Positions 38,015 through 64,000 of a stretch of 64,000 bases of DNA are shown in pieces; position 1 is the stretch's first letter, and every line of letters begins with the position of its first letter. The stretch is from an uncultured Balneola sp. (GTDB lineage: Bacteria > Bacteroidota > Rhodothermia > Balneolales > Balneolaceae). The DNA is taken from assembly GCA_913058495.1 (NCBI GenBank), contig CAJXQC010000004.1:1-64000 (forward strand), written 5' to 3'. Below the pieces are notes generated by a model. The model saw nothing but the letters and a program-made list of their open reading frames with translations, was not told where the DNA came from and did not search any database. The position numbers and the translations under genes are program-made.

Positions 38015-38114
38015 TTTACCCTCTTTAAATTCAGTAGTTAGAATTGTTTAATGAAACCAATTAAGTATTAATAATTGGTATATTTAATCAACTTCATCTG
38101 CAAAAAGAGCTTTT

Positions 38115-46100: not shown

Positions 46101-46215
46101 TATTTTTGTCCCATTTAAAACGAGTTAGAATTACCTAATCCTGGTTTACTCATTATCGTTTAGTAGTATATTAGTCTATCTGTGACAAGCAGTTAATCTG
46201 GCTTTATAAGTAGAT

Positions 46216-49200
46216 ATGACAAATTTTTTTACCAAATACCTCTTCATATCTGTAGCACTTTTTTTCGGGCTTAGTGAGATAGCAAATGCTCAACTTGGGT
46301 CATTTGCTGAAAGAAAGAAGTTTAATATAGAAAGTGATAGTATCAGTGGCGCTTCTGATCTAATAAATTTTCCGGTTCTGGTAAACGTAACTTTGCCATC
46401 GGGAGATGGGGAAAATGCAAACGGATTTGATATTGCTTTTACAGCTGGTGACGGTACTACACAACTGGACCATGACCTCGAATCTTATGATTCCGGTACG
46501 GGTGAGCTTGTAGCATGGGTCAGGTTCCCTTCTTTAAGTGCTACAACTGATACCCAATTTTTTATCTATTACGGTGACTCAGGGATTACCACCGATCAAA
46601 GCACAACTGATACTTGGAACTCGGATTATCAACTGGTAATGCATATGGACGGTGGCGCTACCGAAGATGATGCAACTTCTAATGCCAATGATGGCACAGA
46701 AAACGGAACGGGTGGAATTCCAACCACTTCAGGGAGAATCGGTGATGGTCGTGATTTTGAGCGGGGTGATTCAGACTTCATCTCTGTAGCAGATGATAAT
46801 AGTCTGGATATTACAGACGAAATCACAATTTCTTTCTGGTATAATCCGGAGTCAAACGCTGCACCTGATATGGTTACAAAGGGAACCAACACTTCATATG
46901 AGGCTACAATAAGGGGTGGTCCCCGAATGCAGTTCAAAAAAGAAGGTGGATCAAATCTTACTGCTGATGCTTCCTTTTCGCTCAGCAACTCAACATGGTA
47001 CTATTTAACCTATGTACAAGGAGCTTCAGGAAGGTCAATTTATCAAAATGGAGTTTCAATAAACACCGATGGCAATACGACTGCTTTTTCTACAAATGGA
47101 GATGCTTTACAAATTTCCAGATCAGGTGATGCCGCTGACGGCATTATTGATGAAGTCAGAATTTCTGATATAGAATTAAGCGAAGATTGGATAGCTACTG
47201 AATATGCTAACCAATTAAATCCCTCAACTTTTATAACAGAACTGGATGACCTGCCCAGCTTACAAAATATTGAATCAACTGCTGCAACATATACGGCAGG
47301 TGGTTCAGCAATATTTATTACATCCGATTTAACTATTGGAAGCCACCCCACTGTTACAACATTAGATAGTGCCGTAATTCAAATATCTAACAATCTAGAT
47401 AATCCTGATGATCAACTTGGCTTTTCTGATCAATTGGGAATTACCGGAACATATACCGCTGCAACCGGAAAACTTTTACTTTCGGGAACTACTTCTTTAG
47501 CCAACTACCAAACAGCGCTTAGAGCAGTTACTTTCAGTAGCCTTGTCGGGACTCCAAGCCAGCTCACAAGAACGGTTTCTATTACGGGGTACAATGGCTC
47601 TTCAGCTACCAACACTCCAGTTAGAGATATTGATATTATCTGCACATTAACTGATTTAACTACTGACATTTCAAATATCGTTTTCCATTTTGATGCACAA
47701 GATCTGGATGGAGACGGTACTGCAAATTCTGCGGAAGGTTCCCCTCCAACCAATAACTCTTCAGTTACTTTATGGGGAGATCTCAGCACAAACAATTTTG
47801 ATTTCGCTACAGGTACTGCAGCATTATTTGACTCCTCAGGCTTTGGTGAACGTGGTGCTGTTACCTTTGATGGAACGAACGATGAATTAATAAAAGGTGG
47901 AGAAGCGCTGATTAACAACGATGATTTCAGCCAAAAATCTTTTGCTATTACAATCCGTACAGGAACATCTACAGACGGATTTCAGGTAATATATGAGCAA
48001 TCCAGTGGCGGACTAGGTTATAATTTCAGTATCGTTGATGGAAATTTATACGCTCATGCTTACAACAGAAGCAGCGCAAATTGGGGTGCATCCAACTCCT
48101 TGAGACATCGAGTTATAAATCTTGGTACTGTGCAATCAAATCAATCCTACATAATCATAGCATATCATGATTCTAATGTTTGGGCTGCTGAGTTAAACAA
48201 CGGTTTACTAGAATCTTTTTCCGATGCCGCTGATATGAATTCTAATAACAATAGCATAGGCTTGGGTGGTAATGATGGCTCGCAGACCCGAAATCCAATT
48301 ACACTTTCGAATGAAAACGGAAATTTTAATGGACAAATTGTAGAATTTGCTTCTTGGAACACATCGCTAAACGGTGGGCAAAGAGCCAGTATATATAATT
48401 ATTTTAACGACAAATGGGGGAACGTTCCTCCTGTCTTATCTTCCATTGAAGGTACAAATTTAGATTTTACAGAAGGCGATCCGGATACTCAAATCACCAA
48501 TACTATTACTGTTTCAGACAGCGATTCTCATAACAATATGGATAGCGCAAAGGTATCTATAACTACAAACTTTATAACCGGTCAAGACTCTCTCATCTTT
48601 GCTAATACTGCAAATATTACCAGGACTTATAATGGAACTACGGGCGTGTTACTACTTTCGGGAAGTGATACAAAAACAAATTATCAAACTGCATTGCGAT
48701 CTGTCAATTATCGTAATACCCAATTTAATCCTTCAACGAATACTCGAACAGTTGAATTTGAAATTTATGACTGGGATGATGTAAGTAACACTGTGAGCAG
48801 AAACATAAATATCAACAATCCTGATGCAACACCTGTGCTTGCAAATATTGATAGTGGAGATTTAGCTTATACAGAAGGTAATGGTGCAGTAGCAATTACT
48901 TCTGCTATTACAGTATCTGACGTCGATGACACAAACATAGAAAGTGCAACTATTTCCATTACCGCTAACTACTTTATTGGTGAAGATTTTCTCGACTTTA
49001 CAGACACCGGAAATATTTCAGGCAGCTTTGCTTCAGGAAGTGGGATATTAACTTTAACCGGAAGCGATACTAAAGCGAATTACCAAACAGCGCTTAGAGC
49101 TGTAACTTATCAGAATACCAGCTCAGACCCGGTGACCCTTGACCGAACTATTTCTTTTGTCGTCAATGATGGAGATAATAACAGTAACACACAAAGCAGA

Positions 49201-52200
49201 GATGTGACAGTAGCTACAGTAAACTCGAAGCCTGTTCTTAGCTCTATTGAATCATCAAATATTCCTTATCCTGATGCTGCTGTTCAGATTACAAATACTA
49301 TTGTAGCTTCTGATCCTGATGATACCAGACTTGACAGCGCATTTGTAATAATTTCTGAAAATCTGAAACCTGCAGAAGATTCTCTTATTTATTCCACCCT
49401 TTTCGGAATTACGGGAAGCTGGAATCCAAATACAGGAATTCTCAAACTTACAGGGAATAATTTATTAAGCGATTATGAAGCAGCATTAAGATCTGTGGAT
49501 TATATAAATACTGCCACCATAGCGTCAGGCCCCGAACGAGTAGTTAGTTTTATCGTTAGTGACGGTGATCTCAAAAGTGATACTCTAAAACGTACCATCG
49601 ATGTAAGTCCGGTAGAAACCATTCCTGATCTTGAAGTTTGGCTTAGGGCAGATGCCGGAATTTCTGAAGGAAACGGAGTTTCTATTACGACCTGGGAAGA
49701 TCAAAGTGGGAATGGAAATGATTATACAGGTGCAGCTGGTTCAGGTACAACTCCGACTTTTGTAGCAAGTTCTGCAACTTTAAACAGTAAGCCATCGGTA
49801 AACTTTATAGGAAACGGAGATCACTTTCTCGATAGTGACGGACAAACAAATTACATCAACGGAAACAATGAGTTCAGTATGTTTATTGTTTATAAATCTG
49901 ATGTTACAAATACTGATAAAGGACTTTTTATAGCTGATTCTCCTTCAGGAGCTGATGAGATTCTGACTATTAGATACGACGCTTCAGGAGCAAATGGTGG
50001 TGGATCATTTAATGATGTAGTAAAAACCGGAATTCTGGGTAATGGTGCCGACAACCAGTTAGAAAGCTTTTCTGATATTCAAACATCCGGAGCACAAATA
50101 ATTAGCTTGCAATGGGAAAGCGGTACAACATACGATCTATATGTAGATGGAATTTTGAATAATCCGAGTTCTGCGGCTGACCCTCCCCCATCAGGAACAA
50201 TTACAACTGCAACTACTGCTTTGCTGGGAAAAGGAGGAAAAGATACCGGAAATAGCAGTTGGGATGGCGAAATAGCAGAATTCATTTTCTATAGTCGTAG
50301 TATTTCCCAAACGGAACGGGAAAGTATAGAGGATTATCTTGCAGACAAATATGATCAGGCAATTCGTAAAATTACTCCGGCGATTGGAGGAGAATCGATC
50401 TCAGCTGATGACGCAAATACTACTTACACTTCGTTAACTGGTCCATTTATTCAGGAAGGATTTATTGGTGAGTTTACATCTAGTGGAACAGTTATTCTTA
50501 ATGCTCCTTCAGGTTATCAATGGAATACAAGCGGAACAATTGGAGTAACTGAATCTCCTGCTTTTGGTGGATCAACAGAATTAGACGCTTCTTTCACCAG
50601 CATCACTTCAACTACAGCAACTTTTACCATAGATGTAGTTTCATCAACCAATCCTGGACAACTACAATTTACCGGCCTGGAAATTCGTCCAACAACAGGA
50701 ACTATGCCAAACACAGAAAATATTATCAATTCCGGAACAACCGGACAAGGTGGAGCAACCAATTACGGAACAATAACCATGGTTCCGGGATTGAAAGACA
50801 GTTTGGTGTTTGTTCAGCAACCAACAACTACATCAAAAGACTCGATCATTACTCCAGAAGTTCGGGTACAACTGGTAGATCAACACGGAAACAGTGTTGA
50901 AGAAGCAGGCATATCAGTTGGTATTAATCTTTTCGGTGGAGCAGGAATTTTATCAGGCACAACTTCCACAAATACAAATGCTTTAGGAATTGCTGAATTT
51001 GAAGACTTAAGCATTGATGATGTTGGTACTGATACATTACAAGCTACAAGTTCAGGATTAACTTCGTCCTTAAGCTCCTCTTTTAACATAGTGAATGATG
51101 GGGTTTTAACCGGATTTATCGTAGAAAGAGTACCCTCAGGAAATATCAGCTCTAAAACTGCAGGTCAAAGTTTCAATATCAAGATCACAGCCGTTGATGG
51201 CTCCTCTACTACTGTAACTTCGTTTAACGGAACTGTAGTAATTTCATCGAATTGCACAATGGACTCCGGGCAAGGAACTTCCTCCGTTTTTTCTTCCGGT
51301 GAACTTGCATCCACAACTGTAAGCATTACCAGTACAGGCTCTTGTACAATAACTGCTACCAATTCAGCCGGCTCTGAATTTGGAAACAGTAATTCATTTA
51401 GTGTAAGCGCAGGGGCTGCGTCTGAAGTAACATCGCTAATTTCTGCATCGCCAACAGTTATTTTGAATAACGGATCGAGTACTTCTGTAATAACAGTAGA
51501 TGTAAAAGACGAATTTGGTAATAATATAACTATTGGTGGAGATGCGATTACCTTATCAACCACCGCGGGCACCTTAGCCAGTACAAGCGGTTCAATTATT
51601 GATAACAGTGATGGAACATACTCTGATACTCTTACATCAACAATGGTTGAAGAAATTGCTACTATTTCAGGAACTGTAAATTCGACAACTATTACAGATA
51701 ATGCACTGGTAGAATTTGCCGCGTTCACTCATATTTGGGAGAGCCAACTTGGTTCTGCAAGCCTCGCATCAGACTGGGAAGAAACAGGAAATTGGAATGT
51801 CGGCAATGTACCCGGAACCAATTCTGTTGTTTTTATTCCTTTAAATCCTGCAGTAGGTAATGAACAACCTGTGATTGATGTTACAGGAAGTACAGTAGCT
51901 TCAGTTACCATGGAAACCGGAGCTTCACTATCCATTTCCGGAGGAATAAATTTCACAATCACGGGCAACCTTTCCGGAGGCAGCGTACTTGGAACCAATG
52001 CTGACAGCATCACTGTTGGAGGTGATATTCTGGATGTAAGTGCAATAAATGTTGGTACGGTTGTTATGAATGGAACTTCCGCCCAAAGTATTACTAACCC
52101 TCATGCATACACAAATCTTGTGATTGATAATGCTAACGGTGTAACAGTAGAAGAAAATCTCGCCATCAATGACAGTCTTATCATGACATCCGGCGAATTG

Positions 52201-53727
52201 CTTATACCAAGTGGAAAAAATCTTGTTGTTGATGGTATCAGATATGGAACCGGAACTTTACGTTTTCAAAGAAAAATATCTGGTGTAAGAGGGTGGCGCA
52301 TTCTCTCCTCTCCTGTTTCTTCTACATTTGGTGATTTTTTGGATGGCACATTAACCCAAGGATTCACGGGATCAACACTTGGCAATGCAACTCTTGATAG
52401 CTTACAACCCAATGTCCTTACTTATTTAGAAAGTTTTGAAGGCACTGACAATCAACGATACAGAAGTCCCGGAAACGCCACAGATCCATTAGTACAAGGT
52501 CAGGGTATTTTTGTGTTCTTTTTTGGAGACATAGCAGCAGATGCTCGCTATAATAATCCGCTTCCGGATACACTAGATGTTAGTGGACAAGAATTTAATG
52601 GTGCAGCCGGTGAAGTGGATTTTGGAGTCACTTATACCGCAAACGCTGATACAGGTTGGAATTTAGTGGGCAATCCTTTTGGCGCCACAATTAATTGGGA
52701 CGACTCACCAAACTGGACCAAAACCAATATCGAGAACACTATCTATATTTGGGACCCGGCTGCCAATGGTGGTAATGGTGAATATCTAACTTGGAATGGT
52801 ACCACAGGAACACTCGGTAGTGGTTTAATTCCACCATTTCAGGGATTCTGGATTAAAGCAAATGGTTCAACTCCTGTTCTAAAAGTTACTACTGACTCCA
52901 AAACAACCGGAGGATCGTTCCTAAGAAAAGAAATTAGGACGGAACAAACCAATGATGTCCCTTTGCTAACATTGGAACTTACCTCCAATGGATTAAAAAA
53001 AGATGCGAGCTTTATGTTTACTGATAATGCTTCAGAATCAAAAGATAATTTTGATGCATTTGAACTACTCCCTTTTACTGAAAACCGTTTAGAAATATTC
53101 AGTTTGCTAGATGATGGAACACCACTTGTCATAAACAACCTTCCGCTTGAGTTTACAAACAGATACTTACTTCCTGTAAATATAAATGGGTATAAAGAAG
53201 GCATTCCGATTTCGGGCGATTTCAAAATTAGAGGGAAAAATCTTGATAACATCCCAGATGAGTGGCTGATTTCGTTGATCGATAATGAAACAGGTGAGGA
53301 AATAGATCTTATAAATCAAGAAGAATACACGTTCTTTCACTCTACCAAAAGCAAAGCTAAAGTAGCCAACCCGAATACTAAACAAAAAGTAATTCGAAAA
53401 AAAGCCGGAGACGCACGATTCACTTTGAAAATTACAACTGAGGAAATCGAACTTAATATCCCGGAACAGCCTTTTTTATCACAGAACTATCCAAATCCTT
53501 TCAACCCAACTACCACCATTCCATTTGGCTTAGATGTAGATTCACAAGTTAGTTTGATTGTATATGATATTCTTGGCAGAAAAGTAGCTACTCTAATCGA
53601 CGGAAAACGACCGGCTGGTGTATATTATGAAATATTCATCGGATCACACTTAGCAAGTGGGGTTTACTTTTATCGTCTTTCTACAGATTCTCAAATTTAT
53701 ACTAAGCGATTCACTCTTATCAAATAG
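46216..53727 (+). CDS. Giant multidomain surface protein with T9SS sorting domain, paralog B
   Basis: A 2503-residue protein built like paralog A: signal peptide ending NAQ (about 26), DUF2341 (FPVLVNVTLPSGDGENANG), LamG-like domain, one cadherin-like repeat, second LamG-like domain (HFDAQDLDGDG), three cadherin-like repeats (nt 48430-49610), third LamG-like domain (VWLRADAGISEGNG), the ITPAIGGESISADDANTTYT domain, three Ig-like domains, the GWRILSSPVSS module and a sorting domain with QNYPNPFNPTTTIPF. It has one cadherin-like repeat fewer than paralog A before the second LamG. It starts at ATG 116 bp after paralog A and is followed by the fimbria-motor locus on the same strand. A role as adhesin is inferred. 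Confidence 0.88.
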   Translation: MTNFFTKYLFISVALFFGLSEIANAQLGSFAERKKFNIESDSISGASDLINFPVLVNVTLPSGDGENANGFDIAFTAGDGTTQLDHDLESYDSGTGELVAWVRFPSLSATTDTQFFIYYGDSGITTDQSTTDTWNSDYQLVMHMDGGATEDDATSNANDGTENGTGGIPTTSGRIGDGRDFERGDSDFISVADDNSLDITDEITISFWYNPESNAAPDMVTKGTNTSYEATIRGGPRMQFKKEGGSNLTADASFSLSNSTWYYLTYVQGASGRSIYQNGVSINTDGNTTAFSTNGDALQISRSGDAADGIIDEVRISDIELSEDWIATEYANQLNPSTFITELDDLPSLQNIESTAATYTAGGSAIFITSDLTIGSHPTVTTLDSAVIQISNNLDNPDDQLGFSDQLGITGTYTAATGKLLLSGTTSLANYQTALRAVTFSSLVGTPSQLTRTVSITGYNGSSATNTPVRDIDIICTLTDLTTDISNIVFHFDAQDLDGDGTANSAEGSPPTNNSSVTLWGDLSTNNFDFATGTAALFDSSGFGERGAVTFDGTNDELIKGGEALINNDDFSQKSFAITIRTGTSTDGFQVIYEQSSGGLGYNFSIVDGNLYAHAYNRSSANWGASNSLRHRVINLGTVQSNQSYIIIAYHDSNVWAAELNNGLLESFSDAADMNSNNNSIGLGGNDGSQTRNPITLSNENGNFNGQIVEFASWNTSLNGGQRASIYNYFNDKWGNVPPVLSSIEGTNLDFTEGDPDTQITNTITVSDSDSHNNMDSAKVSITTNFITGQDSLIFANTANITRTYNGTTGVLLLSGSDTKTNYQTALRSVNYRNTQFNPSTNTRTVEFEIYDWDDVSNTVSRNININNPDATPVLANIDSGDLAYTEGNGAVAITSAITVSDVDDTNIESATISITANYFIGEDFLDFTDTGNISGSFASGSGILTLTGSDTKANYQTALRAVTYQNTSSDPVTLDRTISFVVNDGDNNSNTQSRDVTVATVNSKPVLSSIESSNIPYPDAAVQITNTIVASDPDDTRLDSAFVIISENLKPAEDSLIYSTLFGITGSWNPNTGILKLTGNNLLSDYEAALRSVDYINTATIASGPERVVSFIVSDGDLKSDTLKRTIDVSPVETIPDLEVWLRADAGISEGNGVSITTWEDQSGNGNDYTGAAGSGTTPTFVASSATLNSKPSVNFIGNGDHFLDSDGQTNYINGNNEFSMFIVYKSDVTNTDKGLFIADSPSGADEILTIRYDASGANGGGSFNDVVKTGILGNGADNQLESFSDIQTSGAQIISLQWESGTTYDLYVDGILNNPSSAADPPPSGTITTATTALLGKGGKDTGNSSWDGEIAEFIFYSRSISQTERESIEDYLADKYDQAIRKITPAIGGESISADDANTTYTSLTGPFIQEGFIGEFTSSGTVILNAPSGYQWNTSGTIGVTESPAFGGSTELDASFTSITSTTATFTIDVVSSTNPGQLQFTGLEIRPTTGTMPNTENIINSGTTGQGGATNYGTITMVPGLKDSLVFVQQPTTTSKDSIITPEVRVQLVDQHGNSVEEAGISVGINLFGGAGILSGTTSTNTNALGIAEFEDLSIDDVGTDTLQATSSGLTSSLSSSFNIVNDGVLTGFIVERVPSGNISSKTAGQSFNIKITAVDGSSTTVTSFNGTVVISSNCTMDSGQGTSSVFSSGELASTTVSITSTGSCTITATNSAGSEFGNSNSFSVSAGAASEVTSLISASPTVILNNGSSTSVITVDVKDEFGNNITIGGDAITLSTTAGTLASTSGSIIDNSDGTYSDTLTSTMVEEIATISGTVNSTTITDNALVEFAAFTHIWESQLGSASLASDWEETGNWNVGNVPGTNSVVFIPLNPAVGNEQPVIDVTGSTVASVTMETGASLSISGGINFTITGNLSGGSVLGTNADSITVGGDILDVSAINVGTVVMNGTSAQSITNPHAYTNLVIDNANGVTVEENLAINDSLIMTSGELLIPSGKNLVVDGIRYGTGTLRFQRKISGVRGWRILSSPVSSTFGDFLDGTLTQGFTGSTLGNATLDSLQPNVLTYLESFEGTDNQRYRSPGNATDPLVQGQGIFVFFFGDIAADARYNNPLPDTLDVSGQEFNGAAGEVDFGVTYTANADTGWNLVGNPFGATINWDDSPNWTKTNIENTIYIWDPAANGGNGEYLTWNGTTGTLGSGLIPPFQGFWIKANGSTPVLKVTTDSKTTGGSFLRKEIRTEQTNDVPLLTLELTSNGLKKDASFMFTDNASESKDNFDAFELLPFTENRLEIFSLLDDGTPLVINNLPLEFTNRYLLPVNINGYKEGIPISGDFKIRGKNLDNIPDEWLISLIDNETGEEIDLINQEEYTFFHSTKSKAKVANPNTKQKVIRKKAGDARFTLKITTEEIELNIPEQPFLSQNYPNPFNPTTTIPFGLDVDSQVSLIVYDILGRKVATLIDGKRPAGVYYEIFIGSHLASGVYFYRLSTDSQIYTKRFTLIK
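48430..49610 (+). repeat. Three cadherin-like repeats in paralog B
   Basis: Units begin near 48430, 48832 and 49231 with PVLSSIEGTNLDF, PVLANIDSGDLAY and PVLSSIESSNIPY and follow the same pattern as in paralog A. A further, more degenerate unit lies at about 47262-47640, before the second LamG-like domain. Confidence 0.75.
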
Positions 53728-53844: not shown

Positions 53845-54360
53845 ATGAAGATTGTATCCAAAGCGTTATTTATAGTTTTACCTATTCTCCTGGGACTTAC
53901 TACTGGTGGATTTGCTCAAAAATCATCTCAAACTGCTAAAACCAATATAGAGATCACAACAACCATTGTAAGTTCTATAGAGCTTATTACCGTCAAAAGT
54001 ATCACTGTTGGAAACCTTCAACCTGGTCAGGAGGAAGTGTACATTAACTCCATAAATGACGCTAATGCGGGGTATATGATAGCTGTTGGCGCTCCTGGTG
54101 CTGATTTCAGGTTGAATTTTGAAAGAACAAGGACGCTTACTCAGGTAAATGGTGATGGAAGTTTAATTTTTGAATACGAACTTTCCGGAAATAATCTAGA
54201 AGATCAAAATAGTGCTGAATACATTGATGAAGATTTTAGAAGTCTTAAATTTAATTCTGAAGGTCAATTTCATATATGGGTTGGAGGGAAAATTGATTTA
54301 AGGAACGCGCGTCCCGGAAACTACGATGGAGATTTTACTATTGAAATTGAGTACATATAA
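53845..54360 (+). CDS. DUF4402-like pilin candidate 1
   Basis: A 171-residue exported protein with a signal peptide ending GFAQ (about 25). The mature protein is a single beta-rich domain whose C-terminal strand pair HIWVGGKIDLRNARPGNYDG is characteristic of DUF4402-type fimbrial subunits. It is the first of four such genes placed before a chaperone and an usher-like gene. Its stop overlaps the start of the next gene (TAATG). By analogy with chaperone-usher fimbriae it should be exported and assembled at the outer membrane; whether it is the shaft or a tip is not known. Confidence 0.75.
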   Translation: MKIVSKALFIVLPILLGLTTGGFAQKSSQTAKTNIEITTTIVSSIELITVKSITVGNLQPGQEEVYINSINDANAGYMIAVGAPGADFRLNFERTRTLTQVNGDGSLIFEYELSGNNLEDQNSAEYIDEDFRSLKFNSEGQFHIWVGGKIDLRNARPGNYDGDFTIEIEYI

Positions 54361-54968
54361 TGAGGTTTCTACAAACTTACATATCTGCTTGTTTATTAAA
54401 TGCCATTTTGGTTTTCTGCTTCACAGAAAATTCGACTGCTCAGGAAATTGATTTCGGTTCTTATAGTTCTGTTTACTCAGTTACGTTATCTGAGTTAAAC
54501 ATTGGGGAAGAATTAGATTTCGGATTACTGATACAAAACGAGGGATTGGTTTCAATACCAATAGCTGAATCCAAAGTTCTATCAATTTTGGGAGTTAAGT
54601 ACCTGGATGTAATTGTTGATATTACTGCAGATAATTATCTTCTGCTTAACGGCAACTTATCCTGCTCTACAGATCCTAGTTGCAGGATTCCATTCACTTT
54701 ACAAGCCTCCTATGCCAATAATGGATCCAATACTTTCAGCCAAGCTGTAAATTTCACAGTTGTTTCAAATGTAGCTAGTGCACAATTTCCGATAAAGCGC
54801 AGAGCCGGCGGACCGCCAAGCCCCCCGCCTACTCCGGTTTACGAAGGCTATAACCCTAATCTTTTTCAGGAAACAGCTTATCTTTATATATATGGTTCTT
54901 TAAATGTAGGCAACATAAATGCCGGCAGTTACACTGCTGATATAATAATTACTATTAGCTATGATTAA
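54360..54968 (+). CDS. Divergent pilin-like secreted protein 2
   Basis: A 202-residue exported protein (signal peptide ending STAQ, about 28). It is a more distant relative of the neighbouring pilin candidates: its end LYIYGSLNVGNINAGSYTAD aligns with the GGxID...GxYxGD ending of the other three. It carries two cysteines (CSTDPSC) that could form a small disulfide loop, and a proline-rich stretch GGPPSPPPTPV before the last strands. It overlaps both neighbours (1 bp upstream, 8 bp downstream). It may be a minor or adaptor subunit; this is inferred. Confidence 0.65.
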   Translation: MRFLQTYISACLLNAILVFCFTENSTAQEIDFGSYSSVYSVTLSELNIGEELDFGLLIQNEGLVSIPIAESKVLSILGVKYLDVIVDITADNYLLLNGNLSCSTDPSCRIPFTLQASYANNGSNTFSQAVNFTVVSNVASAQFPIKRRAGGPPSPPPTPVYEGYNPNLFQETAYLYIYGSLNVGNINAGSYTADIIITISYD

Positions 54969-55479
54969 TAACCTTGCTAAGATATTATTTTTATTATTTC
55001 TAGTGGTTTCACACAAACCTCTTTCCGCACAATTTATAAACCTTCAAATCACCATCGAACCTGAATTAAGTGCACAGGTAGAGCAAGTACTGGACTTTGG
55101 ACAGGTTGTTTCTAACTCAGGTGTTATGCAAATCGAACTTGGTGATTTGAATACAGGAATATTCAGCATTCGTGCTATAAGGTCCCAGTCTCTATATATA
55201 GAACTTAATCATCCTGATTTTTTGACTCGTGAAAATAATCCATCTGATCAGATTCCTTTAGAATTAAATGTGTCGTATAACAATTCGGGAAATGATAACA
55301 TCTCTAAATCACAAATACTTGCAGATCGCTCCGGTACCATAACAATTGGTGGTTCTGAAAACAATTCAGAGAATTTTTGGCGCAAACTTTATTTATATGT
55401 ATACGGATCTATTGATGTAGGTAACATTCCAAATGGACTATATAAAGGAGACGTTACACTCTTTGTAAGCTATGATTGA
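54961..55479 (+). CDS. Divergent pilin-like secreted protein 3
   Basis: A 172-residue exported protein with a signal peptide ending LSAQ (about 21). It shares the pattern of the preceding protein: a VLDFGQVVSNSGVMQIELGD beta segment and a C-terminal YLYVYGSIDVGNIPNGLYKGD. It starts 8 bp inside the previous gene, so their translation is coupled. It probably belongs to the same surface structure as the other pilin candidates. I cannot assign a specific role. Confidence 0.65.
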   Translation: MINNLAKILFLLFLVVSHKPLSAQFINLQITIEPELSAQVEQVLDFGQVVSNSGVMQIELGDLNTGIFSIRAIRSQSLYIELNHPDFLTRENNPSDQIPLELNVSYNNSGNDNISKSQILADRSGTITIGGSENNSENFWRKLYLYVYGSIDVGNIPNGLYKGDVTLFVSYD

Positions 55480-55598: not shown

Positions 55599-56138
55599 AT
55601 GAAAACTCTATTGAAATCTACTTTAGTTGTTTTGGCTGCTCTTTTGGTCTCTGGAACTTCTTTTGCACAAGGTTCATCAGATGATGCTACTGTATCTGCA
55701 AATGCCAATGTTGTAGCTGCTCTTACAGTTACTAATGTTTCTGACTTAAGCTTTGGAGACATCCTTACATCAGAAACTCCAACCATTAGTGCTACTACTA
55801 CAGGAGCTGGTTCTGTTTCAGTTTCCGGTGCAACAAGTGGTCAAACACTTAACGTAACAATAGATTTCCCTTCTGTTCTTACGGACGGAACTCCTGCTAA
55901 CGATTTATCATTTGATACTTACAGTGCAGCTGTTACAGCTTCTGGAAACGATTCTGATCCTACAAACGGTGTTGCATTAACTGGTGCTGCTACAGCAGGA
56001 ACTCAAATCACAGGAACTTTCGTTGCAGGAGCAACTGCAGCCCATATTTTCGTGGGTGGTCAAATTGATGACGCTTCAAGTGGTGTTGCTGGTAATTCAT
56101 ATGCAAACAATATTACAGTAACTGTAGACTATAACTAA
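55599..56138 (+). CDS. DUF4402-family pilin, probable major subunit
   Basis: A 179-residue exported protein with a signal peptide ending SFAQ (about 24) and a low-complexity, Ala/Thr/Ser-rich mature part without cysteine. It contains DLSFGDILTSETPTIS and ends AHIFVGGQIDDASSGVAGNS followed by a Tyr-containing beta strand, the DUF4402 pattern. It has its own upstream gap of 120 bp and a strong terminator right behind it, unlike the other three subunits. That would allow much higher expression than the rest of the locus, as expected for a fibre shaft protein. Confidence 0.8.
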   Translation: MKTLLKSTLVVLAALLVSGTSFAQGSSDDATVSANANVVAALTVTNVSDLSFGDILTSETPTISATTTGAGSVSVSGATSGQTLNVTIDFPSVLTDGTPANDLSFDTYSAAVTASGNDSDPTNGVALTGAATAGTQITGTFVAGATAAHIFVGGQIDDASSGVAGNSYANNITVTVDYN

Positions 56139-56266: not shown

Positions 56267-57097
56267 ATGAATAAATCTCTATACGCTATTACACTCCTTA
56301 TTTTATCTTTAAGCAGTATTACTGCTTTTGCACAGGTTACTATTGCTCCTACCAACTTATTTATTGATGACAATTCTAAGTTTGGTACTTATATGGTAAT
56401 TAACGGGTCCAATGAAACACAAGAAATTTCTATTGATTTTTTCTTTTCCTATGCAAATTTAGATAAAAACGGCAACCGTTCTTTAATCAAAGACGATATT
56501 GAAAAAGCTGAACAGCATTCTATTGTTGAATATGTACAAGCTTTTCCAAAAAACTTTAAACTTGCCCCGGATCAGCGACAAATTGTTCGATTGAGAGTTT
56601 CTGCTCCAAATGATCTTTCTGACGGCACTTATTGGTCTAGGATCAGAACATCTTCTACTCCAGAATCCCCACCGATAGAGCTGCAAACGGATCAAGCAGT
56701 TACAGCTCAGGTTGGCATTATAGTGGAACAAGTAACAGGGCTTTTTTATAAAATTGGGAACGTTAATACCGGTATAGAAATTAATACGATTCGCTCTGAA
56801 AGAGACGGGTCAAAATTGACTGTGCTTACTGACTTTTTGAAAACAGGTAACTCTCCTTTTTTAGGTTCGATATATACTTCCTTATTGGATCAATCAGGCA
56901 GAGAAGTAAAGACAGGATTCATTTCTACATCTATCTACTTTGATGGAACTCACAAACAGGAATTGGATATATCTGATTTAGCTAATGGTACTTATACAAT
57001 AAAAGTAACTTTTGAAACTAATCGCTCCGATATCTCTGAAAGAGACATTGTTGGTATGGAACCTGTAAACCAAACAACTTCTTTTGAAATCAATTAA
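56267..57097 (+). CDS. PapD-like periplasmic fimbrial chaperone
   Basis: A 276-residue exported protein with a signal peptide ending AFAQ (about 23). The N-terminal Ig-like domain begins VTIAPTNLFIDDNSKFGTYMV and includes NFKLAPDQRQIVRLRV, where the family motif for donor-strand pairing lies. The second domain has IRSERDGSKLTVLTDFLKTG. It is somewhat longer than classical PapD (about 240). Chaperones of this kind hold pilin subunits in the periplasm until delivery to the usher. It is 2 bp ahead of the usher-like gene, consistent with that role. Confidence 0.85.
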   Translation: MNKSLYAITLLILSLSSITAFAQVTIAPTNLFIDDNSKFGTYMVINGSNETQEISIDFFFSYANLDKNGNRSLIKDDIEKAEQHSIVEYVQAFPKNFKLAPDQRQIVRLRVSAPNDLSDGTYWSRIRTSSTPESPPIELQTDQAVTAQVGIIVEQVTGLFYKIGNVNTGIEINTIRSERDGSKLTVLTDFLKTGNSPFLGSIYTSLLDQSGREVKTGFISTSIYFDGTHKQELDISDLANGTYTIKVTFETNRSDISERDIVGMEPVNQTTSFEIN

Positions 57098-57099
57098 CC

Positions 57100-60081
57100 T
57101 TGAAGTGCAAAACTTCTTTTTTATATACAATTCTTACAGTTCTATTGTGCTTAAGTTCTGCAAAAGGACTGTCCGCTCAGGATACAACTGAAGAAACAGA
57201 AGTTTATTTAGACTTTCAATATCAAGGTGTGGTTAAAACAGTAGTAATAAGCTACTATAAAAATGATATTTTCTTTCTTCCGGTAACAGAACTATTCTCT
57301 CTTTTCAAAGTTCAGAATTCAAGAGAGGGAAATATAATTACCGGTAAATTTTCTGCAGATCAAACTCCTTTCAGAATTGATCTTGCTAAGCAAACAATTA
57401 AATTCGGTAATAAACAATTTTCTTTATCTACAGATGATTTCATTATACAGGAATTAGATGATTACCTCTCCCCCGGTATTTTTTCTGAAATATTTAAACT
57501 GAATTTCTCGGTTGACTTCAACAAGCTGATATTAAACCTTGAAACAGAAGTAACTTTACCCGTCGTTGAGGAAGCTTTAAGAAACCGACGGCGAAAAGTT
57601 GTAGAGGCTAATACCTATCAAAAAAATTATTATGACTTAGCTCTTGACAGAAATAAATCATTCTTGAATGGAGGTTTTGTTGATTACTCTTTAACAAGCT
57701 TTGTAACCAACAATGAAAACAGCTATTCCTATAGTACATCTTTAGGTTTACAGCTGGCCGGAGGAGACCTTCAGGGAAATGTATTTGGCAATTATACGAA
57801 CAACTTTAATATTTCCAGCAACAATCTTCGATGGAGATATGTAATTCGGAATAATCCCGCAATTACACAAGTTTATGTTGGGCAATCAACACTAGATGGG
57901 GTTTTAAGTTCGAATTTTACAGGCCTAAAAATTTCCAATCAACCCATAGAACCCAGAAGATACTTTGATGAATACGTTGTTCAAGGTTCTACAATTCCTG
58001 AATCAGAAGTTGAACTTTATTTAAATAATGCTTTGATCGGATATGAAAAATCTGATGAACTTGGCAATTATCGCTTTACAACACCTCTTTATTACGGAAC
58101 CTCTGATCTCGATTTGAAAATTTATGGTCCGACCGGACAAACTATTGACAAATCCACGAAAATTCAGGTTCCTTTCAGTTTCTCACCTCAGGGAGAATTT
58201 AATTACAACTTAAATGCCGGGGTTCTTGATAATCCATTATTAGGTTCAACAGAGCGTCCTTTGGTTGTTAATGCCAAAGCAACTTACGGTATAAAAAGTT
58301 GGCTTTCAGGCTCTCTTGGTACTGAATATTTTGAAGGAGCAATGGAAAATTCAACTCCAGCCCTTACAGGTGCCCTCTCAACTCGGTTTCTAACAAGTTA
58401 TATCCTTACTCTTGAAGGTGTTTCTCAAGGTTATTACAGATCAAATCTAAATGCATTTTTTGCGAACTCGGCAAACTTCAGTATAGATTTCACCAAATTT
58501 ACATCTGAATCAATCCTGTATAATTCTTCCGGAAGGGATAAGCAACTAAATACATCCTTTTTTTATCCTTTCACTGTAGGTAATCTGCCTTTAATTTCCA
58601 GAGTATCTACTTTCACTGTGTTCAGAGATGATGTTCAGTCTACTTCATTACGTTTAGATTTAAGTACAAGAATAAATAAATTTAATTTCAGGTTTGGATA
58701 CTCTGACCGTGTTCTTAATTCTTATAACTTTCTGGATCCAAGTTTTTCTTCTACTCTTGATAATTCCATTACTTATAACATTTCCAGAAACCCCAACATC
58801 CCAAAAATACTCCGGGGAACTTTTTTAAGAGCACAAATGCGGTTTTTACCAAAATTATCTAAAATTGAAACTGCTCAATTTGTTATCTCCAGAAATCTGT
58901 TTAATAGCGGGCGATTACAATTATCATATGGCCGAAACTTTATTAATAATTTTAATAACGTAAGAGCGAGTTTTGTAATTGACTTCAACAAAGCCAGATC
59001 AAACTCTACCTTTTCTTCAATCCGTTCAGATTATAGTGTTTCTCAAAATATTCGGGGCTCTTTGGGTTACGATACGAACTATAATAACTTTATTGTTACA
59101 AGCAGAAATCAGGTAGGAAGATCCGGAGCCGCTATCAAACTTTTTGTAGACAATAACAATAATGAAAGGTATGATGAGGATATCGACCAGCCAATTGACG
59201 CCGGCTCTATTAGAATAGACCGAACCTCAGCTTCTTCATTCCGTAAAAATGGAATTTTGTATTACTCACAAATGCAGCCTTATTTCCGCTATAATATGCA
59301 GGTTAATAAAGGCTCTATTGAAAACCCCTTATTAGTACCTGAACTTAATGAGTTTTCGATTATCACGGATCCGAATACCTTCAAAAAAATTGAAATTCCT
59401 TTTTATATGTCTGGAGTTATTGAGGGTAATGTCAATAAATATTTTGATGAACAAAACAATAGCGGGATAGGTGGCGTGAGAGTTCTTATCTCAGGTATTG
59501 ATAGCGACTTTTTCAAGGAATTGAGATCGTTTTCTGACGGTAGTTTCTACTCCTATGAAGTCCCACCCGGAAAGTATAAAATGAGCATTGATCAGAATCA
59601 GCTTAGTGTACTGGATTCCAGATCTGAGCCCGGTGAAATTGAATTTGAGGTACAAGCTTTGTCAGAAGGAGATTTTGTTGAAGGCTTATCGTTTCTTATC
59701 GTACCAAATGATTACAATCCTGATCAAAAAGAAGTAAGACCTACAGATGTTATTATAGCTGATATTAGTGAAACTACTGAGATCCTTGAACTAGAGGCAG
59801 AACTAGATGATAATATCACTAAAACTTTAAGGCTTATTATACAGGCGCAAACTGCTTTTTACAACAGAGATATTGAACGGGCTCTGACATTAGTCAACCA
59901 GTCATTAAGCTTATTTGAAACTGCACAAGGTTACGCTTTGAAAGGAAGTCTTAATTATTTGAAAGGTAATAAAGACGAAGCTCAACAGAACTGGGATCGG
60001 GCAGTAGAATTCAATCCGGATATCTTTATTCCGGATATAGAAATATTAGACCAATTAATTAGAACTCAACCAGGTAACTAG
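57100..60081 (+). CDS. Usher-like outer-membrane protein with regulatory-type and TPR-like C-terminal extension
   Basis: A 993-residue exported protein starting at TTG, 2 bp after the chaperone stop. After the signal peptide (about 1-26) come an N-terminal domain, a beta-barrel-like region of alternating strands, and the usher middle-domain signature FDEYVVQGSTIPESEVELYL with NALIGYEKSDELGNYRF. A long second barrel half follows. Residues about 685-870 hold FVDNNNNERYDEDID and a carboxypeptidase-regulatory-like domain (GVRVLISGIDSDF, EVPPGKYKMSID). The last 90 residues are TPR-like (AFYNRDIERALTLVNQSLSL, ALKGSLNYLKGNKDEAQ). Classical ushers lack this TPR tail. A similar segment closes the lipoprotein at 61963-62439. 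It is predicted to secrete and anchor the pilins. Confidence 0.78.
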   Translation: MKCKTSFLYTILTVLLCLSSAKGLSAQDTTEETEVYLDFQYQGVVKTVVISYYKNDIFFLPVTELFSLFKVQNSREGNIITGKFSADQTPFRIDLAKQTIKFGNKQFSLSTDDFIIQELDDYLSPGIFSEIFKLNFSVDFNKLILNLETEVTLPVVEEALRNRRRKVVEANTYQKNYYDLALDRNKSFLNGGFVDYSLTSFVTNNENSYSYSTSLGLQLAGGDLQGNVFGNYTNNFNISSNNLRWRYVIRNNPAITQVYVGQSTLDGVLSSNFTGLKISNQPIEPRRYFDEYVVQGSTIPESEVELYLNNALIGYEKSDELGNYRFTTPLYYGTSDLDLKIYGPTGQTIDKSTKIQVPFSFSPQGEFNYNLNAGVLDNPLLGSTERPLVVNAKATYGIKSWLSGSLGTEYFEGAMENSTPALTGALSTRFLTSYILTLEGVSQGYYRSNLNAFFANSANFSIDFTKFTSESILYNSSGRDKQLNTSFFYPFTVGNLPLISRVSTFTVFRDDVQSTSLRLDLSTRINKFNFRFGYSDRVLNSYNFLDPSFSSTLDNSITYNISRNPNIPKILRGTFLRAQMRFLPKLSKIETAQFVISRNLFNSGRLQLSYGRNFINNFNNVRASFVIDFNKARSNSTFSSIRSDYSVSQNIRGSLGYDTNYNNFIVTSRNQVGRSGAAIKLFVDNNNNERYDEDIDQPIDAGSIRIDRTSASSFRKNGILYYSQMQPYFRYNMQVNKGSIENPLLVPELNEFSIITDPNTFKKIEIPFYMSGVIEGNVNKYFDEQNNSGIGGVRVLISGIDSDFFKELRSFSDGSFYSYEVPPGKYKMSIDQNQLSVLDSRSEPGEIEFEVQALSEGDFVEGLSFLIVPNDYNPDQKEVRPTDVIIADISETTEILELEAELDDNITKTLRLIIQAQTAFYNRDIERALTLVNQSLSLFETAQGYALKGSLNYLKGNKDEAQQNWDRAVEFNPDIFIPDIEILDQLIRTQPGN

Positions 60082-60098: not shown

Positions 60099-61925
60099 AT
60101 GACAATCAGAATGTATACGTTGGTTAAAGAATATTTGAGTAATTATTTGATATTGAGATCTCTGTTTTCTCTTTTGATGATCTTATTTATTTCAAATTTA
60201 TCAGTTAAGGCACAAGCTTCCCGTGTCACTTCGCAATCAGGAGAACTTCAAATCGCTTCTCTTGAACAGGCATACGATTCACAAGTTATTTTGATACTTT
60301 CTAATCATTTTGATAGAAAGAAATTTTTCGTGGACGTGAATATTGACGCTGAATTTATCGAGGAAACTATTCAAACACCCGGCACTCAAACTATAGAGAG
60401 AAACCCTCAAAGCTTTTTACCAGGTCTGCCTTTTCTCCCCGATGAAAATCTGCAAAGCTCACAAACTTCACAAGCCACCCCTCAAACTACTACAAACCAA
60501 ACAACTTATAAGACTTTACAGTTAAACAGCCTTGCTATTAATATATATGCCGATACCTCACTTTCTGATAGTGATTTAGATTTTATGAGGCGTGTGACCG
60601 GCTTTGCCGCTAAAGTAGACTTTACAAGAGGCGATTTAATAAATATTACTCAACTAGCCATCCCTAATCCTGATTTTGAACCAGCTGTAGTTATAACAAA
60701 TACTCAAGAACCCGAGCCTAAATCTCTCTTAAGTTCTTTCAAAGACTATCTGGTTGAAATAATTTTGCTTGCTGTATTCCTACTTGGACTATTTGGTTAT
60801 GGCATGTTCAGAAACTCAAAAGATAAATCTGATTTTCAAGCTCAAAGACAAAACCTTAAAAGTGATATAACTTTAGAGGGAAGTTTAAACCCGGATAGTA
60901 ATGTTTCTTTTTTCGGAAGTTCAAAAGAACAGTCCCGGAATATTGTTTCTGAATTTGAATTAGTGTCTGAAAACTTCTTTAAATATCCACAAGAAGTTTC
61001 TTTGGTTTTTGAATTTTGGATTGACAGTGATGAAAAAAATGGCCCTTCAAATGTAGCTGAAGTTGTTTCTTCTATAGATTCAAGTTCTCTTAAATTACTG
61101 CAAAATCATATTGACGAAGAAAAACTGGAGACTATCAAAGCAGCAATCAGAGATTTACCTCCAATGTCTATCGATGAAAAGTATAGAGCTGCAAAGTATT
61201 TTAACTCTGTTATTGAAGACGAAAACACCGATGAAAAATCAACCAAAAAGCATGCTAAGCTAGGGCTATTTAAATTTCTTACACACTTATCTGATGAGTT
61301 GTTAACTGAACTCATAAAAACTGAAAATAATGTAAGTGCTGCACTCATAATTGATTATTTACCGGAGGATAAAGCAGCTTCTATCCTAAACACATTTGAA
61401 AGATCCCGAGCTGCTGAAATCATGCTTAAAATGTCTACCCTGCATACGCTCTCCTATAAAGAACAAAGTAAAATTTCCAGCGGATTGTTTGAAAAAGCAA
61501 TCTTGGTGAGAGATAATGTACATGAGCAAGATTTTGGTGTGGAGAACATTTTACCGATTCTTGAAAACCTTCCTGTGAACGAGCAGAAAAGATATATTGA
61601 GCAATTGAAATCAACAGGTTCACCGGTTGGCACAATATTAGAAAAAGAATTCTTTACCATAGACCAGATCCCGGAATTGGAAGACGAAGTTGTCAAAAAT
61701 GGTGTTGAAGAAATTGACACTTCAACATTGCTGGAAGCGCTGGTTGGTCTTGAACCTGAATCTATTGATAAAATACTGACCGGAAGACCTAAACGAGAAC
61801 AACAATTGATTCGACTTGAGCTTGAATCTATAAACGGTGAGCATCAAACCAATAATGATGCAAAAAAGAAACTTGTCAGCTCACTTAGGAAATCTTTAAA
61901 ATCTAGTAAAGCAGATCAGCAATAA
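60099..61925 (+). CDS. FliF-like / FliG-like fusion protein (motor rotor component)
   Basis: A 608-residue inner-membrane protein. Residues 1-38 are a signal peptide. Residues 45-190 match the FliF RBM3 domain (FVDVNIDAEF, then LNSLAINIYADTSLSDSDL, then GFAAKVDFTRGDLI), with a Gln/Thr/Pro-rich insertion at about 95-137 where FliF has its beta-collar. A membrane span lies at 217-236. The cytoplasmic part aligns with FliG: armadillo M-domain (about 398-470, LIIDYLPEDKAASILNTFE), ARM-C (about 479-515, GVENILPILENLPVNEQKRY), a degenerate MFxF hinge (FFTI, 518-521) and the C1-6 torque-helix domain (522-600). The FliF YscJ-like RBM1/RBM2 part is absent. The EHPQR motif reads ENNVS. It lies 17 bp after the usher and precedes the lipoprotein and MotA. 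Confidence 0.82.
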   Translation: MTIRMYTLVKEYLSNYLILRSLFSLLMILFISNLSVKAQASRVTSQSGELQIASLEQAYDSQVILILSNHFDRKKFFVDVNIDAEFIEETIQTPGTQTIERNPQSFLPGLPFLPDENLQSSQTSQATPQTTTNQTTYKTLQLNSLAINIYADTSLSDSDLDFMRRVTGFAAKVDFTRGDLINITQLAIPNPDFEPAVVITNTQEPEPKSLLSSFKDYLVEIILLAVFLLGLFGYGMFRNSKDKSDFQAQRQNLKSDITLEGSLNPDSNVSFFGSSKEQSRNIVSEFELVSENFFKYPQEVSLVFEFWIDSDEKNGPSNVAEVVSSIDSSSLKLLQNHIDEEKLETIKAAIRDLPPMSIDEKYRAAKYFNSVIEDENTDEKSTKKHAKLGLFKFLTHLSDELLTELIKTENNVSAALIIDYLPEDKAASILNTFERSRAAEIMLKMSTLHTLSYKEQSKISSGLFEKAILVRDNVHEQDFGVENILPILENLPVNEQKRYIEQLKSTGSPVGTILEKEFFTIDQIPELEDEVVKNGVEEIDTSTLLEALVGLEPESIDKILTGRPKREQQLIRLELESINGEHQTNNDAKKKLVSSLRKSLKSSKADQQ

Positions 61926-61962: not shown

Positions 61963-62439
61963 TTGATGTCGACATCACTGCTATTTTCTTGCGGAAGTTC
62001 TAAAGATATGCCTGTTAATGAACCTGTAAATGCAGATCAAAATGAAGAAACTTTAGCTCAAACTGATAGTTCTGAGACAATTAGCCCCGACATTGATCTC
62101 GAAAAACAAAGAAGGGATTCGCTCACTCAAGTTTATAAAGATGAGCTTTACAAAGACTATCAGACGAAAGCCAACAGAATTACTACACTTTATATTCTTG
62201 CTCAGCAAAAATTTTATAGTGCTGAGTATCAGGACGCTCTATTTTTAATAAACCGTGCTTTACAGGTAAAGGAAACTGCTGATCTGTTAGCTTTGAAAGG
62301 AAGTATTTATTTGGGATTGGGTTCTGTTGAAAACTTCGTGGCTTTTTGGAGAAGGGCTCTCGAAATGGATGCAAACTTACCCATTCCTCCTTCTCCAGCC
62401 ATTGTTGAAGAATTAAAGAGGCAAGGCTTAATAGAATGA
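61963..62439 (+). CDS. TPR-like lipoprotein of the fimbria-motor locus
   Basis: A lipoprotein of about 158 residues with lipobox LLFSC. The first canonical start (TTG 61963, then ATG 61966) leaves only about eight residues before the cysteine. However, the frame is open upstream to 61900 and encodes a proper signal (NKQYISNAIILGICLMSTS), so translation may begin earlier at a rare start codon such as ATC 61915 or ATT 61948. The mature part has a charged linker and a TPR-like C-terminal region (AQQKFYSAEYQDALFLINRA, LALKGSIYLGLGSVENF) that resembles the tail of the usher-like protein. It probably sits on an envelope leaflet and bridges usher and motor; this is inferred. Confidence 0.7.
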   Translation: MMSTSLLFSCGSSKDMPVNEPVNADQNEETLAQTDSSETISPDIDLEKQRRDSLTQVYKDELYKDYQTKANRITTLYILAQQKFYSAEYQDALFLINRALQVKETADLLALKGSIYLGLGSVENFVAFWRRALEMDANLPIPPSPAIVEELKRQGLIE

Positions 62440-62474: not shown

Positions 62475-63272
62475 ATGCGCACATCATTTTTAAACATTTT
62501 TTGTTTCTTAGTTTCATTATCCATTTTAATATGGGGAGCCCTTCTTGTGGTTGGGTTTGCTCAATACAATATGATTCCATCTAAATATGAATTTCTGAAC
62601 CTTCCCAGCCTAGCCATTGTATTTGGAGGTATATCAGCAAGCGTATTTATCAGTTATCCATTTAAAAAAGTCATAGTAGCATTACGCGAAAGCACTCGAC
62701 TTTTTTCTCAAAGCAATATAGATGATCAATTACTTGAAAAGGATATTGAAAAAGTTTTAGAATGGCAGAAAAGAATACGGATCGATAAAATTAAAGCCGT
62801 TTCTGAATTAAGTGAAGAGTATGGAAATCGTTTTGAGGGGTATCTTTTTTCAATTTTAGATACTAATTATTCAACTGAAGATCTTCGTGAGTTAGCAGAA
62901 ATAAATATTCAGGAAACATTCACACGGCAACATCAGATCAATCAAATAATAGCGAGTATGGGTAAAACAGCTCCTGTCTTCGGTATGCTGGGTACACTAT
63001 TTGGACTTATTGTTATTCTATCCGGTTTTAATGAGATGGATTCACTGTTAACAGGACTTGCTGCTGCATTGATGACTACACTCTATGGAATAGTAATTGG
63101 GAACTTCATCTTTATTCCAATGGCAAAAAAGATGAATAATATTGCTTCTCTTCAATTTTTCAGAGAAAAACTGATATTGGAAGGTATTCTGTTGATTCAA
63201 CAACAAAAATCTTCACTTCAGATCTACGACAAACTCAAAGCTCATATGCATAGAACGAGCCAACAATTTTAG
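62475..63272 (+). CDS. MotA-like stator subunit
   Basis: A 265-residue inner-membrane protein of the MotA/TolQ/ExbB group, closest to MotA by its length, its four spans and its large cytoplasmic loop. Spans lie at about 9-29, 45-62, 165-185 and 195-216. The MotA-type signatures GKTAPVFGMLGTLFGLIVIL (Pro167) and GLAAALMTTLYGIVIGNFIF with Pro215 line the ion path. The loop region (about 70-155) carries basic and acidic residues (LEWQKRIRIDK, AVSELSEEYGNRF) as in MotA surfaces that contact FliG. It is 35 bp after the lipoprotein gene and followed 11 bp later by a MotB-like gene. It most likely forms an ion-driven stator acting on the FliG-like fusion. Confidence 0.88.
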   Translation: MRTSFLNIFCFLVSLSILIWGALLVVGFAQYNMIPSKYEFLNLPSLAIVFGGISASVFISYPFKKVIVALRESTRLFSQSNIDDQLLEKDIEKVLEWQKRIRIDKIKAVSELSEEYGNRFEGYLFSILDTNYSTEDLRELAEINIQETFTRQHQINQIIASMGKTAPVFGMLGTLFGLIVILSGFNEMDSLLTGLAAALMTTLYGIVIGNFIFIPMAKKMNNIASLQFFREKLILEGILLIQQQKSSLQIYDKLKAHMHRTSQQF

Positions 63273-63283
63273 GGTAGCGGAAA

Positions 63284-64000
63284 TTGAGTTTAGACCAGAC
63301 AAATAACACTAAAAATTCACTGTATCCTAAGCAGGAAATTGAAAATGAAGATGACGACAGTTGGCAAGTAAGTTATCTTGATATTATAACCATTCTCCTT
63401 GGTTTTTTGATCATTTTACTTTCTTTCTCAGACTTAAATGATGGTGAGCCCTTTTCTGTTTCTGAATTGTTCAAATCTTCTTTGAATGAAACCGAGTTTA
63501 TCACTACACCCATTGAAAACATTAAAGAAGAACTTGAAGGATTGCTGGCTCCTGAAATTGAACAAGGTAAACTTGAAATATTCAGAGAACTAAATGATGT
63601 CCGAATCAGATTTAAAAGCGACGATCTTTACAGTTCCGGAAGTGCAACTCTGGAAAACGAAGCATCAGAAATACTTAACCGTGTTTTAGCAGCTTTCAGG
63701 ATTATATCTTATGACGATTTTGAAATAGACGTTGAAGGCCACACAGATAACGTCCCTATTTCTTCTGCTAACTTTGATTCGAATTGGGAGTTATCTACCT
63801 CAAGAGCATCCAATATTGTAAAATATTTCAGTGAAATGGGGATTGCACAGGAACGTTTAAAAGCATCCGGTTATGCTGACTCCAGACCTTTGGTTGAATT
63901 TGATGAACAAGGCAATCCTTATCCTGCAAGCAAGGACAGAAACCGAAGAGTTGTTCTCCGGTTATTCTATTCAAGTCCGGAACAAATGGCAAAAGCAGAT
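63284..64000 (+). CDS. MotB-like stator subunit (3' end beyond window)
   Basis: An open frame of at least 239 residues starting at TTG 63284 and running off the window. It has a single membrane span near the N-terminus in which WQVSYLDIITILLGFLIILL carries the ion-binding Asp33 at the MotB position. A linker follows, then an OmpA/MotB peptidoglycan-binding domain with EGHTDNVPI, WELSTSRASNIVKYF, RLKASGYADSRP and KDRNRRVVLRL. Together with MotA it should form a peptidoglycan-anchored stator. Being incomplete here, its length and any extra C-terminal domain cannot be judged. Confidence 0.88.
   Translation, partial: MSLDQTNNTKNSLYPKQEIENEDDDSWQVSYLDIITILLGFLIILLSFSDLNDGEPFSVSELFKSSLNETEFITTPIENIKEELEGLLAPEIEQGKLEIFRELNDVRIRFKSDDLYSSGSATLENEASEILNRVLAAFRIISYDDFEIDVEGHTDNVPISSANFDSNWELSTSRASNIVKYFSEMGIAQERLKASGYADSRPLVEFDEQGNPYPASKDRNRRVVLRLFYSSPEQMAKAD

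Follow-up and report, generated by a model that had tools for sequence, protein, structure and literature searches.

The chaperone-usher pathway and a flagellar-type motor: one operon

Why should an outer-membrane usher carry an additional C-terminal tail when the genes directly downstream of it encode relatives of the flagellar rotor and stator? The question is raised by a stretch of 64,000 nucleotides (the window) from an uncultured Balneola sp., which is part of contig C4 of a 3.4 Mb genome (G000) whose closest named relatives in our genome collection are Balneola and other Balneolaceae. All genes concerned lie on the plus strand, in the order four pilin-like genes, presumed chaperone, usher, FliF-FliG fusion, TPR lipoprotein, MotA and MotB; pyruvate dehydrogenase genes follow MotB on the opposite strand. 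The pilus genes upstream of the usher are:

53845..54360, +, pilin-like subunit 1, DUF4402-like (Pfam DUF4402 E 4.8e-5, just under the cut-off; position conserved 5' of chaperone and usher)
54360..54968, +, pilin-like subunit 2, DUF4402-like (Pfam DUF4402 E 0.005, under the cut-off; position conserved)
54961..55479, +, pilin-like subunit 3 (DUF4402 weak; kin of subunit 2)
55599..56138, +, pilin-like subunit 4 (no Pfam match; signal peptide by sequence; position conserved)
56267..57097, +, presumed periplasmic chaperone (position conserved 5' of the usher)

The presumed chaperone gene abuts the usher core on its 5' side in nearly all relatives whose contig reaches that far. Pfam and PDB sequence searches gave no convincing PapD match for its product, and we infer the partnership with the usher from this conserved gene order. 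Two further weak PDB matches of the protein were set aside as chance-like.

Further upstream, positions 34379-53727 of the window encode three giant secreted proteins of 1211, 2661 and 2503 amino acids. Two of them were scanned and both end in T9SS-type sorting domains; the 2503-residue protein carries laminin-G-like and Invasin_D3 domains. C-terminal regions like theirs stand 5' of pilus loci with a motor and of those without one (static loci).

Structure of the usher

The usher ORF (57100-60081, plus strand, TTG start, 993 amino acids) encodes an N terminus that resembles a signal peptide; it is conserved throughout the order. Pfam Usher (PF00577) does not match the window protein and matches 2 of 53 relatives (best 2.9e-5), and a sequence search of the PDB with the usher profile found no usher, so that a structure was needed for identification. 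We built an AlphaFold2 model on a 53-sequence alignment (mean pLDDT 87.7). Foldseek retrieved FimD at E 4e-31, and VIA-align placed model residues 171-866 onto FimD 123-833 (9fw9; Z 23.3, 622 aligned residues, rmsd 8.5). FimD and PapC rank on top with both programs (Z 19-23), and the alignments extend to the end of FimD (833) and of PapC (808). The fold predicted for the full chain is that of an usher, bearing out the usher-type barrel that a first-pass annotation had read from the sequence; the DSSP list contains 24 barrel strands, strand 6 being followed by a plug-like insert (288-357). The chain is divided as follows:

57100..57177, +, signal peptide, residues 1-26 (sequence; helix 2-19 in the model)
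57196..57546, +, N-terminal domain, residues 33-149 (beta-rich in the model; outside the FimD/PapC structural alignments)
57658..59079, +, 24-strand barrel, residues about 187-660 (strand list; FimD/PapC Z 22-23)
57961..58170, +, plug-like beta sandwich inserted behind strand 6, residues 288-357 (model; placed as in FimD/PapC)
59080..59406, +, C-terminal domain 1 (CTD1), SdrD_B-like, residues about 661-769 (Pfam in relatives, model, structural alignment)
59407..59709, +, C-terminal domain 2 (CTD2), the 'carboxypeptidase-regulatory-like' domain, residues about 770-870 (Pfam in relatives, model, structural alignment)
59770..60069, +, TPR adaptor tail, residues about 891-990 (model, Pfam, likeness to the lipoprotein, co-inheritance)

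The carboxypeptidase-regulatory-like domain is present (CarboxypepD_reg match in 36 of the 53 relatives, best E 7.8e-7), but it is not the extra domain that the first-pass annotation had taken it for. Since FimD aligns through to its own last residues, this domain occupies the place of the second C-terminal domain, and in the model residues 1-870 appear to be a complete usher with both C-terminal domains. Only the part beyond about residue 890 is additional. Its TPR-like character, also proposed earlier, was confirmed by helices in the model (893-921, 925-938, 942-954 and 958-971) and by a Pfam TPR_2 match that lies under the curated cut-off in the window usher (E 2.9e-4); 13 of 53 family members match TPR_2. 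The tail follows domains that are periplasmic in FimD and PapC, which argues for a periplasmic rather than a surface-exposed position.

Motor genes and the TPR lipoprotein

Downstream of the usher the operon continues with four genes:

60099..61925, +, FliF-FliG fusion, 608 aa, with RBM3 and collar (45-189), a transmembrane helix (210-238) and a FliG-like region (about 313-604) (Pfam, profile search, model, structural alignment)
61963..62439, +, TPR lipoprotein, lipobox LFSC (Pfam; paralogous to the usher tail)
62475..63272, +, MotA, flagellar class (Pfam, profile and PDB sequence search, conserved residues)
63284..64000 in the window, the ORF running on to contig position 65008, +, MotB with plug and OmpA domain, 574 aa (Pfam)

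In the fusion protein residues 45-189 match RBM3 and collar of FliF (Z 13.8), the transmembrane helix follows, and the FliG-like region of the same chain aligns with Z 13.3; the mean pLDDT of this model is only 68.8, and its domain arrangement is unreliable. Profile searches retrieved FliG (1lkv, 6e-22) and MS-ring FliF (5e-5), and the FliG middle and C-terminal domains score above the Pfam cut-offs. According to model and structural alignment a single periplasmic domain precedes the transmembrane helix, RBM1 and RBM2 being absent. The FliM-binding EHPQR motif is likewise absent from the FliG region, where ENNV and similar sequences are found instead. The torque residues of FliG are R281, D288 and D289 in E. 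coli numbering (PMC12505986); the torque helix of related loci keeps the Arg and one acid, and the other acidic position is mostly Leu or Met.

A PDB sequence search with MotA matched flagellar MotA structures at 1e-23 and TolQ at just 1e-3, and in this test, which is one of sequence only, no GldL chain was among the matches. An assignment to TolQ/ExbB or GldL was rejected, as flagellar MotA structures score far better. Two MotA prolines are conserved in all related loci, as is the MotB Asp in every locus where the motif was located. MotB ends in a SPOR region, which Pfam recognises in the close orthologue of locus L034.

To our knowledge no motility of Balneola has been published. FlhA (FHIPEP) is absent from the source genome (99% complete) and from all seven same-genus genomes searched; it occurs in 19 of 58 relatives, some of which also have the FliFG-MotAB motor. 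The source genome contains one FliG_C match. Balneola has been described as lacking flagellar assembly genes, unlike some of its neighbours (PMC9909488). The motor parts are relatives of the flagellar rotor and stator, not a flagellum.

The usher tail and the TPR lipoprotein proved to be homologous in the pairwise alignment that the first-pass annotation had suggested (39% identity over 67 aa, E 8e-12). In a genome-wide search with the usher as query, the usher itself and the TPR lipoprotein were the only matches at E <= 1e-3; the likeness therefore exceeds that of generic TPRs.

Tail types among relatives

Relatives were gathered from whole genomes and from named contigs, two collections that overlap. 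A single-sequence scan of the genome contigs found no usher relatives, but an alignment query did; in viral contigs none were found. The tails of the relatives fall into three states: TPR, SPOR (Pfam SPOR E 2e-14) and absent. A FliF-like gene lies directly 3' of the usher in 34 of 34 TPR-tailed rows, which owing to the overlap correspond to about 25 distinct loci. Such a neighbour is present in 0 of 35 SPOR-tailed rows and beside none of the intact tailless ushers; the sole row classed as tailless beside FliF, L052, consists of the N-terminal part of a TPR usher that is split. On the usher-core tree the TPR label changes at least eight times, each change being forced by well-supported branches. 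Tail and motor have thus switched jointly and repeatedly, and relatedness alone does not explain their association.

Three Balneolales-like ushers (L096, L098 and L099) are found on contigs labelled Thioalkalivibrio, Methanofastidiosia archaeon and Nitriliruptoraceae. These contigs are probably wrongly binned metagenome sequence.

Identity patterns within the usher gene

Pairwise identities were correlated over 13 motor loci. The identity of the tail follows that of FliG (r 0.95) and FliF (0.93) and less so that of the chaperone (0.54), and the usher core follows the chaperone (r 0.86). With the core held constant in a partial Mantel test, the correlation between tail and FliG persisted (r 0.91, p 0.0005) and that between tail and chaperone was r 0.005. 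A scan in 50-residue blocks (12 loci) located the switch of signal between usher residues about 850 and 875, i.e. at the border of CTD2 and TPR. The same pattern is seen in the comparison of the window with Balneola sp. EhC07, where chaperone and usher core are near 50% identical, the TPR block 82%, most of FliFG 82-100% and the dehydrogenase genes 97-99%. As the core tracks the chaperone and the tail tracks FliG, pilus modules have been exchanged on a conserved motor. The end of the usher gene that encodes the tail adjoins the FliFG gene, and linkage could cause part of the co-inheritance; the position of the switch at a domain edge inside a gene makes pure linkage less likely.

Static and motor forms at one chromosomal site

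The pilus genes upstream and the pyruvate dehydrogenase operon downstream are the same in static loci (e.g. L038, L047, L053 and L072) and in motor loci. In static loci the usher core continues straight into a SPOR module; at the same place motor loci have the TPR tail, FliFG, the lipoprotein, MotA and MotB, and here it is MotB that carries the SPOR module, which is homologous to the SPOR tails of static ushers. When the MotB SPOR module was used as query, 11 motor-less genomes gave any match, and in 10 of them it was the usher tail; in the eleventh, G021, it was a separate ORF near a SPOR-tailed usher. This ORF (L176, 9215-10861, minus strand) encodes a 548-aa protein with a similar SPOR module on the strand opposite the nearby usher. 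The distribution suggests that motor forms carry the peptidoglycan anchor on the stator and an adaptor on the usher, and motor-less forms the anchor on the usher itself, which, ending in SPOR domains, is probably tied to peptidoglycan. In some of the more distant motor loci MotB has only about 220 residues, which leaves no room for a SPOR module, so the placement of SPOR on the stator is not universal.

Partial loci and motors without an usher

Four tailed loci lack the torque-generating parts. L050, L052 and L077 have kept the usher tail, the FliF-like gene and the TPR lipoprotein, and FliG and MotAB are absent (in L077 the contig leaves only 3.5 kb of room); L049 has kept these three as well and, of FliG, only a FliG_M-like part, FliG_C and MotAB being absent. 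FliG_C and MotAB are thus missing together, with tail, FliF and TPR lipoprotein staying. The remaining loci with long enough contigs have kept FliG_C, MotA and MotB, including the ion-path residues. Rotation is therefore not required in every version. Because the tail stays with both FliF and the TPR lipoprotein where the torque parts are missing, the comparison points to one of these two as its partner, and the genomic data would fit the lipoprotein and the motor ring equally well. The earlier proposal of a periplasmic tail linking the usher to the lipoprotein or the ring is strongly supported by genomics; the correction concerns the domain in front of the tail, which is CTD2 and not an extra regulatory domain.

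A second type of FliFG-MotAB motor locus, without an usher, was observed in L054-L059 and L169 (G007, G006, G030, G020, G029, G011 and G328). Such a locus comprises FliFG, a secreted protein of 357-370 aa, a TPR protein, MotA and MotB, the secreted protein possibly ending in a barrel (a reading from L054, L057 and L169). L169 differs in gene order and lies outside the order. The source genome, with its one FliG_C match, has no such locus.

A proposed role of the tail and its alternatives

The explanation that we favour, and that we hold to be somewhat more probable than its negation, is that the usher ends in ~100 residues that are part of a different machine, a tail by which exchangeable pilus modules dock onto a flagellar-type motor powered by ions. 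Its parts differ in strength. Physical coupling of tail and motor is well supported by comparative genomics and highly probable, and there is a good likelihood that the motor is a working, ion-driven one. Movement or rotation of the pilus as the output is a more tentative proposal, for which we see slightly less than even chances, and the same reserve applies to the complete picture, in which an ion-driven motor of flagellar type moves or rotates a chaperone-usher pilus and a TPR socket allows one conserved motor to serve interchangeable pilus modules. In this mechanism residues 1-870 would be the part that swaps partners along with the pilus module's chaperone and pilins, and residues ~890-990 the TPR adaptor of the downstream motor module, made up of the FliF(RBM3)-FliG ring, the TPR lipoprotein and the MotA/MotB stator. 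OmpA and SPOR domains would anchor MotA/MotB to peptidoglycan, and ion flow through this stator would turn the FliF-FliG ring via FliG_C. The RBM3/collar ring would bear two kinds of TPR adaptor, namely the lipoprotein and its paralogue, the usher tail; these would extend to the outer membrane, and torque or a stroke would pass through them to usher and pilus. Binding of the tail to ring or lipoprotein, rotation and transmission to the pilus are steps that we infer. The FliF ring of flagella is made of about 34 subunits, an usher of one or two, which counts against a simple coupling geometry; a single docking site for both paralogous TPRs would ease this mismatch in copy number, as many lipoproteins and one usher could then share a ring. 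The FliG region without the EHPQR site and with one torque-helix acid also counts against the favoured explanation.

The motor might instead power pilus assembly, subunit release or retraction via the usher rather than move the finished pilus, with the TPR tail giving the ring access to the usher plug or the CTDs. The tail is joined right behind CTD2, and these domains handle subunits in FimD; the genetic association of tail and motor speaks for this role just as much as for the favoured one. Yet chaperone-usher assembly is known to require no outside energy, and the same usher core occurs in motor-less relatives from many taxa, so that we consider a role in assembly unlikely. Less probable still is a static or sensing scaffold, in which ring and lipoprotein form a tether for the usher that spans the periplasm, with MotAB/FliG either dispensable or serving as load sensors. 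The four tailed loci without torque parts would fit such a scaffold, but the retention of FliG_C, MotA, MotB and the ion-path residues in the other sufficiently long loci would not, and the torque parts were lost jointly, as expected of parts in use.

Co-inheritance by linkage would be enough if the motor drove another envelope process and the tail merely targeted the usher or aided its insertion. The tail and FliFG genes are adjacent, and related motors do exist without an usher; against this, the signal switches inside the usher gene, at a domain border, rather than where the gene ends, and no SPOR-tailed or intact tailless usher was found beside a motor. We regard this possibility as very improbable. 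That the parts, being relatives of FliF, FliG, MotA and MotB, are remnants of a decaying flagellum that chance to sit in a pilus operon has a negligible likelihood: the RBM3-only FliF-FliG fusion is conserved across genera with intact reading frames, fusion and flagellum coexist in some genomes (G017, G028 and G032), and FlhA is absent from Balneola. On the intact, conserved frames of the fusion and the distribution of FlhA this origin was rejected.

Comparison with known systems

We know of no chaperone-usher pilus with an inner-membrane engine, and those bacterial rotary surface machines that we know of comprise the flagellum and the T9SS gliding motor, along with related systems driven by stators. 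A literature search, with bioRxiv preprints and most subscription papers outside its reach, found no description of an usher with a FliG/MotAB motor. If the favoured explanation is true, the locus encodes a further kind of bacterial rotary surface machine, and the flagellar motor core is a separable module capable of driving structures besides the flagellum, a point that matters for the origin of flagella. Forms with and without the motor at one chromosomal site in one genus make this directly testable.

With FimD and PapC the window usher shares the 24-strand barrel, the plug-like insert and two C-terminal beta domains, with a presumed chaperone and pilins encoded upstream. It differs from them in sequence (about 12% identity, no Pfam Usher match), in the extra TPR tail and in an operon that runs on into a rotary motor. 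RBM3 and collar of FliF, a FliG-like region, a flagellar-class MotA and a MotB with plug and OmpA domain are common to the flagellar rotor and stator and the window motor; in the latter, however, FliF and FliG form one chain that lacks RBM1/RBM2 and the FliM site, the source genome has no export gate, and the partner of the motor is an usher. The T9SS/gliding motor of Bacteroidota (GldLM-GldKN) bears a general resemblance, as it combines an ion-driven inner-membrane motor with an outer-membrane translocon and a periplasmic lipoprotein partner (PMC13104615). The window motor, in contrast, consists of MotAB, FliF and FliG relatives, with no GldL according to the MotA search, and its outer-membrane part is an usher. 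As far as we know, the Agl-Glt gliding motor of Myxococcus has neither a FliF/FliG ring nor an usher. What it has in common with the window is a MotA/TolQ-class stator in a non-flagellar envelope machine (PMC13104615). We rate the usher alone as a variant of known ushers and the pilus-motor machine as a whole as a new kind.
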